From an uncultured Psychroserpens sp. (lineage in GTDB: Bacteria; Bacteroidota; Bacteroidia; Flavobacteriales; Flavobacteriaceae), in NCBI GenBank assembly GCA_947488655.1, contig CANKZZ010000003.1, positions 1-64,000 of the forward strand: a DNA stretch of 64,000 nt, given 5' to 3'. The notes beneath the pieces were generated by a model. That model was given only the letters and a program-made list of their open reading frames with translations, did not search any database and had not been told where the DNA came from. Both the position numbers and the translations under genes were made by a program. Positions 52,453 through 54,948 of this stretch are shown here, in pieces (positions within the stretch are counted from its first letter, which is position 1; each line of letters begins with the position of its first letter).

Positions 52453-52554
52453 TGAGTCGCTTATCCCAAACGTGTTTTAGACTTAACATTGAATTTTTGA
52501 TTTCTATAGTTTTTAAAATCATCTAGAAATTTTCGATAAAGAATTAGCATAATA

Positions 52555-52589
52555 AACAAATCCCGAAGTAATTCGGGATTTGTTTTTTT
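52555..52589 (+). terminator. Rho-independent terminator of icmF
   Basis: A 13-bp perfect stem AACAAATCCCGAA (52555-52567) with TTCGGGATTTGTT (52572-52584) over a GTAA loop, followed by a T run. Confidence 0.92.
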
Positions 52590-52771
52590 ATAAATAGGAG
52601 AGACATAAGCCTCAAAATAAAACTGAGCTTGTTTGCTGATTGCACAGTATTACTATAAAACGTATCACTAATTGTCATTAACAATTTATATGATTTAAAA
52701 GTTTTTACTTTAAAATGCATCTTTTTAGATGATTCATCGTCTATTATATGAACATTAAAAAAACATATATT

Positions 52772-52873
52772 ATGAATTATAGAGATTGTACTTGTGACTG
52801 TCAAGGTTGTTTAGATGGAAATTGTAAAAATTGCACGTGTAATAACTGCGCATGTAGTAATTGTAACTGTTAA
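52772..52873 (+). CDS. Metallothionein-like Cys-rich peptide (33 aa)
   Basis: A 33-codon gene whose product has 11 cysteines (residues 6, 8, 10, 13, 18, 21, 23, 26, 28, 31 and 33) in CxC and CxxC spacing and no hydrophobic core: MNYRDCTCDCQGCLDGNCKN followed by CTCNNCACSNCNC. Such a pattern is expected of a metal-thiolate cluster peptide. An in-frame ATG at 52748 would add eight residues. It lies 79 bp upstream of sigZ on the same strand, after the icmF terminator. It is not a member of a metallothionein family that I can name. A dyad GATGA-T-TCATC lies just upstream at 52728-52738. Confidence 0.7.
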   Translation: MNYRDCTCDCQGCLDGNCKNCTCNNCACSNCNC

Positions 52874-52893
52874 GTTATAACTAAATCATAAAA

Positions 52894-52939
52894 AAATAAT
52901 GTCTGTTTTGGTATCTTTATGCTAAGAGAGACATTATTT
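52894..52939 (+). promoter_or_regulatory. Inverted repeat in the sigZ leader
   Basis: An 11-bp perfect inverted repeat, AAATAATGTCT (52894-52904) and AGACATTATTT (52929-52939), is separated by 24 bases. It lies between the Cys-rich peptide gene and sigZ and ends 13 bases before the sigZ ATG. It could be an operator or a leader hairpin that controls sigZ. Confidence 0.45.
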
Positions 52940-52952
52940 ATTAAACATAAGT

Positions 52953-53501
52953 ATGACTACTACAAAAGACATCTGGAAACTATATGCAAATGATATTAAA
53001 AACTTTATTCTAAGTAAGGTTAAAGATGTCGCTATTGCTGATGATTTAGTGCAGGAAACCTTTATTAAAGTCCATACCAAATTAAATACCCTTAAAAATG
53101 ACGATAAAGTAAAATCATGGTTGTTTTCTATAGCACGATATACAGTTTTAGATTATTTTAGACAACGTAATTTGGTTTATGAAACGACAGATGAAGATTT
53201 TGTTTTTGAAGATCACAAATTAGAACACACTAAAGCCGATTGTTTGAGAGGTATCATAAAGAGTCTTCCAAAAAAATATAGAGATCCATTATTTTTAAGT
53301 GATATTAAAGGAGTGAAACAAACTTTAGTATCTAAGCAATTAAATTTACCGCTACCTACTGTGAAATCTCAAATACAACGTGGTAGAAAACTTATTGCCC
53401 AAGGTTTTATAGAGTGTTGCGATTTTAAAGTTAACGACGATGGTTACCTGTTTGGCGAGTTAAAAGAAAAGGCAGACTGTAAAGTTTGCAATCACAATTA
53501 A
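52953..53501 (+). CDS. sigZ: RNA polymerase sigma factor SigZ
   Basis: A 182-aa group IV (ECF-like) sigma factor. Region 2 contains DDLVQETFIKVHTKL and VKSWLFSIARYTVLDYFRQR. Region 4 contains the helix-turn-helix LPLPTVKSQIQRGRKLI (about residues 132-148). As in other SigZ proteins, the C-terminus carries cysteines: CC at 155-156 and CKVC at 176-179. They may bind metal or sense thiol state. No anti-sigma gene is adjacent, so the Cys-rich tail could do the sensing. An OsmC gene follows after 22 bp. Confidence 0.9.
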   Translation: MTTTKDIWKLYANDIKNFILSKVKDVAIADDLVQETFIKVHTKLNTLKNDDKVKSWLFSIARYTVLDYFRQRNLVYETTDEDFVFEDHKLEHTKADCLRGIIKSLPKKYRDPLFLSDIKGVKQTLVSKQLNLPLPTVKSQIQRGRKLIAQGFIECCDFKVNDDGYLFGELKEKADCKVCNHN

Positions 53502-53523
53502 ACAAAAAGTTTTCGGTTTTTAT

Positions 53524-53991
53524 ATGTCAAAAATAAACTTCAAAGTTAGAGCTAAATGGTCAGCTAAAGATGCATTAGATGTTTCGGTTAATGGAAAAAC
53601 ACATCAAGTTTTTATAGACGATAAATCACCATTGACAATTTCTGCAGCTAAAACTTTTAAAGGTGATAAAACGAAACACAATCCTGAAGATTTATTATTA
53701 ACTGCATTATCATCATGCCACATGATGTCTTATTTTTATGTGTGTGCTCAACAGGGAATCAAACTTTTAGATTACGAAGACGAAGCTACCGGAACATTAG
53801 AATTAAAACCCGATGGAAGTGGTGCTTTTGTGTCTGTTACGCTAAATCCGGTGGTTACAATTTCCGAAGAAAAAATGATTGATACAGCTTTGAATTTGCA
53901 CAAAAAAGCCAATAAACTCTGTTTTATTGCCAATTCATGTAATTTTCCAATTACACATCAGGCTAAAGTTAATGTTGTAAACAAAGGATAA
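53524..53991 (+). CDS. OsmC-family protein
   Basis: A 155-aa OsmC/Ohr-fold protein of the general OsmC class. Cysteines lie at 65 (LSSCHMMSYF), 74, 133 and 139 (KLCFIANSCNFP). The first and one of the last fit the peroxidatic and resolving positions. It starts with an ATG at 53524, 22 bp after sigZ, so the two are an operon. It would reduce peroxides or handle thiols, possibly under SigZ. It has one TTCCGAAG word at 53862 in the codons for SEE. Confidence 0.9.
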   Translation: MSKINFKVRAKWSAKDALDVSVNGKTHQVFIDDKSPLTISAAKTFKGDKTKHNPEDLLLTALSSCHMMSYFYVCAQQGIKLLDYEDEATGTLELKPDGSGAFVSVTLNPVVTISEEKMIDTALNLHKKANKLCFIANSCNFPITHQAKVNVVNKG

Positions 53992-53992
53992 C

Positions 53993-54388
53993 TTATAAGG
54001 TCATCATCCAACTACGTTGTAGACGTTTGAATTTTTTTAATTCTTTCTGAAGTATTGGCAAATAATCTCTACCGTTACTATTGCAATGCTGTAAACGGTT
54101 GCAGTTTAAATGAAGTCTATGCGTTAATCGCTCTATAGAATCTAAATGTTTGTGTTTTCTAACGTTGCAAAGTTCTGCTTGAGCCTTTTCTATTTCTGGA
54201 GCTAAAGATTCTGATTGTTGAATGATATCTCCCGAAAAATAAATATCTGCATCTTCACTACCATCTGGTTTTAAATAAGATAAATCCTGATTGATGTAAG
54301 TTGAAATATTTCGGGATAACACGAGAATATCCATAGCCTTTTGATATATAGGCAGTTCAGATAAATGAGATGGGATATTATAATTCAT
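53993..54388 (-). CDS. Hypothetical helical protein (four-helix-bundle type)
   Basis: A 131-aa protein that is helical throughout. The stretch ELPIYQKAMDILVLSRNISTYI resembles the start of four-helix-bundle proteins (the S23/ rRNA intervening sequence type, TIGR02436), but the match is weak. It converges on osmC with one base between the stops. Function unknown. Confidence 0.6.
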   Translation of the reverse strand: MNYNIPSHLSELPIYQKAMDILVLSRNISTYINQDLSYLKPDGSEDADIYFSGDIIQQSESLAPEIEKAQAELCNVRKHKHLDSIERLTHRLHLNCNRLQHCNSNGRDYLPILQKELKKFKRLQRSWMMTL

Positions 54389-54504: not shown

Positions 54505-54948
54505 ATGAATTTAGATAGCCTTAATTGGAAGATTTTAAAATGTTTACAGCTCAATGCGAGGCAGTCTAATGCTAAAATTGGACGTCAGGTTGGTATTAGT
54601 TCTCCAGCAGTTTCTGAGCGTATAAAAAAAATGGAAGATGCTGGTATTATACAAAACTATAATACGCTTGTCTCTCCTTTTGAAGTTGGTTATCAACTAA
54701 AAGCATTAATTACCGTTAGGGCTTTTATGGGCATGTTAAAACCTTTTCTAGAAAAAGTAAAAACCTATGATGAGGTTATTAATTGCTATAGAATTACCGG
54801 TAATGAGAATATAGTTATGGAAGTTGTTTTAAAAAACCAAAAACATTTAGAAACCTTTATAGACCAACTTATTGTTTATGGAGAAACTAAAACGCAAATT
54901 GTATTATCTCACGTGATAAAGCATAATGAAGTTAAACCATTAAAATAA
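54505..54948 (+). CDS. Lrp/AsnC family transcriptional regulator
   Basis: A 147-aa feast/famine regulator. The N-terminal helix-turn-helix (LDSLNWKILKCLQLNARQSNAKIGRQVGISSPAVSERIKKME) is followed by a RAM/AsnC ligand domain from about residue 65. Such proteins sense amino acids and bind upstream of their targets. It is flanked by unrelated genes, so its regulon cannot be inferred. Confidence 0.93.
   Translation: MNLDSLNWKILKCLQLNARQSNAKIGRQVGISSPAVSERIKKMEDAGIIQNYNTLVSPFEVGYQLKALITVRAFMGMLKPFLEKVKTYDEVINCYRITGNENIVMEVVLKNQKHLETFIDQLIVYGETKTQIVLSHVIKHNEVKPLK

Follow-up and report, generated by a model that had tools for sequence, protein, structure and literature searches.

A probable metallothionein-type operon with a co-encoded SigZ-like ECF sigma factor in Flavobacteriaceae

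The ECF sigma factor CorE has no anti-sigma factor and is controlled by a Cys-rich domain at its own C-terminus; its relatives have no linked anti-sigma gene either (PMC3107203, PMC8999054); the 21 CRD sigma factors listed came from four phyla, Bacteroidota not being among them (PMC3107203). Of the known bacterial metallothioneins, those of cyanobacteria are under the SmtB repressor, and no metal regulator is present in the Pseudomonas metallothionein operon (PMC7387436). The literature searched yielded neither a metallothionein controlled by a private sigma factor nor any metallothionein from Bacteroidota, and no function assigned to SigZ; in open-licence PMC text no paper was found that ties SigZ to metallothionein, metals or Cys tails.

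The DNA analysed here (the window) was a stretch of 64,000 nucleotides from an uncultured Psychroserpens sp. (contig CANKZZ010000003.1, positions 1 to 64,000). The initial annotation had noted in it a Cys-rich peptide, a SigZ-type sigma factor and an OsmC protein on one strand, and the three frames, all on the + strand, were confirmed by open reading frames and family matches (Table 1); the ECF-type promoter and the hairpin were absent from that annotation. The gene 5' of the peptide unit is of methylmalonyl-CoA mutase type (1138 aa) and is closed by a strong terminator, therefore the peptide begins an independent transcription unit; terminator-like sites in the region: 3 found, 0.5 expected. 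A hypothetical gene of 131 aa (53993-54388, − strand) and an Lrp/AsnC regulator gene (54505-54948, + strand) adjoin the unit; this pair is kept beside it in many relatives, which is probably mere shared synteny.

Table 1. Features of the peptide–sigZ locus (positions of the window).
Feature	Position	Strand	Basis
Mini-metallothionein-like peptide, type A, 33 aa, 11 Cys (probable)	52772..52873	+	ORF list, homologue matches, Cys codon columns
SigZ-like ECF sigma factor, 182 aa	52953..53501	+	Family models, orthologues, AlphaFold model
Putative built-in sensor: Cys tail at the C-terminus of the sigma factor, C155 C156 ... C176 K V C179	53415..53501	+	
OsmC-family protein	53524..53991	+	22 bp after sigZ; Pfam OsmC
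Intrinsic terminator closing the upstream gene of methylmalonyl-CoA mutase type	52554..52585	+	14-pair stem, then T run
Predicted ECF-type promoter: −35 TGCATCTTTTT (52716-52726), 11-nt spacer, −10 CGTCTA (52738-52743)	52716..52743	+	Conserved upstream of peptide
RNA hairpin of 20 pairs in the peptide–sigZ gap	52894..52939	+	Equivalents in relatives

The peptide (type A) is composed of Cys and small polar residues only, with almost no hydrophobic residues and no His. Its Cys spacing, CxCxCx2Cx4Cx2CxCx2CxCx2CxC, is nearly fixed among homologues; all 11 Cys columns mix TGT and TGC codons (57 loci), and this switch within each conserved column argues for selection on the amino acid. A longer in-frame start (ATG 52748, 41 aa) was rejected, as it coincides with the predicted transcription start, and the start at 52772 was preferred for that reason. 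No Pfam or NCBIfam metallothionein model matches the type A peptide or that of the sister set (type B, see below); both display the sequence characters of the metallothionein functional class, i.e., they are short, ~1/3 Cys (33 aa/11 Cys and 37 aa/14 Cys), with CxC/CxxC motifs and few or no aromatic residues. The composition and spacing suggest that the type A peptide is probably metal-binding and mini-metallothionein-like. A short, compositionally extreme frame found in no family database might also be a low-complexity frame arisen by chance in the leader of sigZ; this is extremely improbable, the Cys being invariant with synonymous codon switching in 57 loci, the frame being conserved at loci without SigZ, and an independent sister family being in existence. 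A chance ORF was rejected on codon switching and conservation.

Linkage of the two genes was examined in 349 Flavobacteriaceae genomes; a close SigZ orthologue (E below 1e-40) was found in 46, with a peptide match at the same locus in 46 of 46, mostly about 80 bp upstream of sigZ; in one of the 46 (G188) the sigma gene and the peptide both look degraded. The pair stays together while the surrounding genes differ between genomes. The initial annotation had staked its proposal on conservation of the peptide frame beside sigZ in relatives, and the peptide survived this check. The peptide and the SigZ-like sigma factor are a conserved unit. Metal transporter genes and other metal genes are not a constant part of its neighbourhood.

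In a profile search of 395 genomes of the phylum, type A was found only in the family of the window; named holders are Winogradskyella, Gelidibacter, Polaribacter, Tenacibaculum, Leptobacterium, Oceanihabitans and Lutibacter. A scan of about 85,000 species with the Cys-spacing pattern gave many poly-Cys/TGC-repeat frames, which were filtered out; among the matches listed after filtering, the true ones were from Flavobacteriaceae and one Cytophagales MAG. In this MAG (L227) the type A-like peptide occurs in an order other than Flavobacteriales, and the 8 kb examined there contain no SigZ. The peptide with its Cys pattern persists without SigZ in about 14 loci. Several small-genome Flavobacteriaceae (L061-L075) keep a type A peptide in this way, some of their loci showing an apparent housekeeping Bacteroidota promoter (TATCTTTA-like) in place of the ECF site. 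One copy (L068:5006-5119, genome G088) is decaying: several peptide Cys are lost, the promoter is degraded, and no SigZ was found in the genome. Judged from its composition and its survival without sigZ, the type A peptide is likely to buffer a thiophilic metal.

The sister set (type B) has a SigZ about 30-36% identical and its own 37-aa peptide with 14 Cys, CxCx2CxCx2CxCx2Cx4CxCx2CxCx2CxCC; the promoter is shifted to TGTATCTTTTT-N11-GGTCT (TGTATC...GGTCT), and the hairpin is again present. The peptides of types A and B can be aligned with confidence in the Cys motifs only. In the SigZ tree, type A forms one clade (99/94), and A and B are grouped (95/79). The type B unit is complete in one further family of the class (G496); in two other families of the class its peptide occurs without SigZ and without the promoter.

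Alignment of the upstream DNA gave TGCATCTTTTT-N11-CGTCTATTATATGAAC before the peptide (window 52716-52753), a promoter form of ECF type with a CGTC-type −10. The strict pattern had 36 matches in the 46 genomes, nearly all at the peptide locus (reversed control pattern: 4); it occurs once in the own genome and essentially once per genome among the relatives. The best site had ≤2 mismatches of 16 in 40/40 type A loci with the sigma gene vs 0/14 scored loci with a peptide and no adjoining sigma gene; 13 of the latter had 5-8 mismatches, and the fourteenth (3 mismatches) is a decayed site before a peptide that is also losing Cys. The promoter and the sigma gene thus come and go together, as in an autoregulated ECF operon, and the peptide survives without both. 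This strong comparative evidence makes it very probable that SigZ autoregulates through the predicted TGCATCTTTTT-N11-CGTCTA promoter. A wide regulon was rejected, since the extra matches at two mismatches only reach control level.

In Polaribacter/Tenacibaculum-type genomes a DUF3703 gene is located just upstream of the peptide (L103:4972-5352; L149 near 6593-6221; L166 near 7598-7284), and in L103 and L149 it is itself preceded by a second type A promoter. Such a second copy of the motif implies targets beyond the peptide in some species and would suit a broader stress sigma factor, the main targets of which lie elsewhere, the peptide being an autoregulated neighbour; with the strict motif present about once per genome, matches at one or two mismatches at control level, and the promoter gone wherever SigZ is gone, this explanation is quite improbable.

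The hairpin between peptide and sigZ has in the window a folding energy of -21.1 kcal/mol (z -5.5); z below -2 was obtained for the intergenic hairpin in 51/52 type A and 15/16 type B loci. The hairpin sequences are largely unrelated among loci, hence it is the structure, not the sequence, that is kept. An attenuator, a partial terminator or an mRNA end is probable; in the simplest reading, a partial terminator or 3' stabiliser would give much peptide and little sigma factor.

The best family matches of the sigma factor were the SigZ models (PRK09637, 168.9 bits; TIGR02959, 150.8 bits); both scores are under the curated cut-offs (212 for PRK09637/NF007215 and 168.65 for TIGR02959), and it is for this reason designated SigZ-like, although SigZ is the best family. 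Pfam Sigma70_r2 and Sigma70_r4_2 were above cut-off, with sigma2 and sigma4 domains only, as in ECF factors; the AlphaFold model has a normal ECF fold, matches ECF structures and carries a short two-strand tail at moderate confidence. The absence of an anti-sigma gene beside it, noted at the outset, was confirmed.

The CC...CxxC tail described in the initial annotation proved to have invariant Cys, which accompany the Cys peptide across homologues. Among 108 SigZ homologues, a CC-x13-24-CxxC tail and an upstream Cys peptide were both present in 74, the tail only in 1, the peptide only in 2 (the first truncated at a contig end, the second having an altered tail) and neither in 31; the Fisher value of 1.5e-23 overstates independence, the rows being related, and the 108 homologues are not independent events, because the co-occurrence falls inside two clades. 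The pattern holds across the two clades and the losses. In the linker region, C97 was present in all type A (56/56) and all type B (19/19) factors vs 15/30 other homologues; it is accompanied by an invariant H92 in type A and by C96 in type B. From the co-occurrence, the lack of an anti-sigma gene and the CorE precedent, the tail is on balance taken as the built-in sensor of SigZ.

The strict co-occurrence with the tail, and an ECF partner co-encoded without another anti-sigma, both partners being Cys-rich, would also agree with a peptide that primarily regulates SigZ, i.e., a small metal- or redox-dependent anti-sigma factor or sensor acting on the Cys tail, directly or bridged by metal. This is unlikely: the peptide keeps its Cys pattern in the loci that are without SigZ, it has hardly any hydrophobic residues for a sigma-binding surface, and anti-sigma genes usually stand after the sigma gene, whereas this peptide precedes it and is separated from it by a hairpin, an arrangement more in keeping with an effector made at high output.

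SigZ homologues without the Cys peptide adjoin arsenite methyltransferase genes (336 and 341 bits, cut-off 263); further neighbours of such homologues are an ArsO-like monooxygenase (partial gene, 325 bits vs cut-off 425), a C-S lyase of PatB type and small ORFs rich in CC. TGCATC...GTCT sites, of the same promoter type, precede several of these genes. In L302:2025-3708 and L304:1925-3713 a TGCATC...GTCTTGG site comes directly after the SigZ homologue, and with it a gene for arsenite methyltransferase (ArsM); in L339:213-4501, L334 and L319, SigZ homologues stand beside ArsO-like, PatB and CC-rich ORFs, several of these genes having TGCATCATTTT...CGTCT-like sites, and these three loci are possibly a sigma-controlled arsenic island. 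The metal(loid)/thiol theme of the initial annotation is strengthened by the ArsM, ArsO and PatB neighbours, and metal(loid)/thiol stress would appear to be a theme of the SigZ family.

The product of the third frame scored 54.3 bits against Pfam OsmC (cut-off 27.5), i.e., it has an OsmC domain, and it reached no NCBIfam subfamily cut-off. The OsmC gene of the window is probably co-transcribed with sigZ. In 8/57 type A loci an OsmC gene lies no more than about 3 kb from the unit; the window is the only one of these with OsmC directly downstream, and in the seven other loci it is upstream of the operon promoter on the same strand. A genome of the same genus (G045) has no OsmC beside the operon. 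The cassette of peptide, SigZ and OsmC proposed at first therefore stands as to the pairing of peptide and SigZ (46/46 genomes) and falls as to OsmC as a standard third member (8/57 loci). As a core member OsmC was rejected, being absent from about 49/57 type A loci and downstream in the window only; it is a recurrent but optional neighbour.

These OsmC positions (directly 3' of the unit in the window, 5' of it in seven related loci), the CxxC and vicinal CC as typical redox pairs, and the PatB C-S lyase beside one related SigZ are compatible with a unit that answers electrophiles or thiol oxidation (stress by peroxide, disulfide or sulfane sulfur), with the peptide as sacrificial thiol or sulfur carrier, SigZ as a CC/CxxC disulfide switch and OsmC as the matching peroxidase. 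That explanation is rather unlikely, as about 49/57 type A loci have no OsmC near the unit, the fixed 11-/14-Cys CxC/CxxC spacing suits metal clusters and not a sulfur sink, and arsenic genes flank related SigZ factors.

The reading preferred here, and held to be probable, is an operon of metallothionein type under a co-encoded ECF sigma factor and switched by the tail of the latter. From the TGCATCTTTTT-N11-CGTCTA promoter SigZ would transcribe both its own gene and that of the peptide, and the comparative evidence for such positive feedback is strong; the hairpin would keep most transcripts short, giving abundant peptide, and a minority of read-through transcripts would give more SigZ. The peptide would bind and buffer thiophilic metal ions (e.g., Cu(I), Zn, Cd) or else further species that react with thiols. 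SigZ, having no anti-sigma factor, would be switched by its own C155, C156, C176 and C179 together with C97/H92 (type A) or C96/C97 (type B), through gain or loss of metal or through oxidation; newly made peptide would drain the signal and SigZ would go off. OsmC in this genome is likely a downstream passenger that would add peroxide removal.

In a broader sense it is rather more probable than not that there exists a family of metallothionein operons, each with a dedicated one-component ECF sigma factor sensing metal via its own Cys tail, in which metallothionein, promoter and sigma factor have co-diversified into at least two insulated pairs, the wider SigZ family doing likewise for arsenic detoxification genes. 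If so, SigZ would gain a function and Bacteroidota a metallothionein at once; a sigma-factor mode would join the known repressor control of bacterial metallothioneins; and the unit would be a very small, self-contained, self-sensing switch (one promoter, a 33-aa effector, a 180-aa sigma factor, no anti-sigma factor). The two insulated sigma/promoter/peptide sets could then be studied as an orthogonal pair. As the peptides are very short and match no family model, operons of this kind are easy to miss in the genomes of marine bacteria.

Comparison with the known peptides: like SmtA/BmtA, the Pseudomonas metallothioneins and mycobacterial MymT, the peptide is short, Cys-rich and presumably a metal-buffering cytoplasmic peptide; unlike SmtA/BmtA with their SmtB repressor, it is without His, without a family match and very probably under a co-encoded sigma factor. 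The alpha domain of animal metallothionein is M4Cys11; it shares with the type A peptide the 11 Cys, the CxC/CxxC arrangement and the lack of an aromatic core. No sequence relation between the two was found; the peptide here is bacterial and of 33 aa, and the likeness is in ligand number only.

Comparison with the known sigma factors: SigZ (TIGR02959, PRK09637/NF007215) is the family that fits best, and the match spans the whole protein with its tail region; the CC is present in SigZ of Vibrio, Photobacterium and Priestia, and further C-terminal Cys in SigZ of Vibrionaceae; the plasmid-borne SigZ genes examined had no comparable Cys peptide directly upstream. With CorE/CorE2 of Myxococcus xanthus (former ECF44, ECF238) the factor shares the ECF type without an anti-sigma factor, the linker Cys and the C-terminal Cys extension. 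CorE has a CxxC-x7-CxC tail and a CxC linker, whereas the SigZ-like factor has a CC-x19-CxxC tail and a linker C97 with H92, or C96 C97, and belongs to the SigZ branch; an assignment to CorE type (ECF44/ECF238) was rejected on this Cys pattern. The targets of CorE are multicopper oxidase and P-type ATPase genes, and the conserved predicted target of the SigZ-like factor is the metallothionein-like peptide of the same operon. By analogy, the SigZ-like factor would work like CorE but is not of CorE type.
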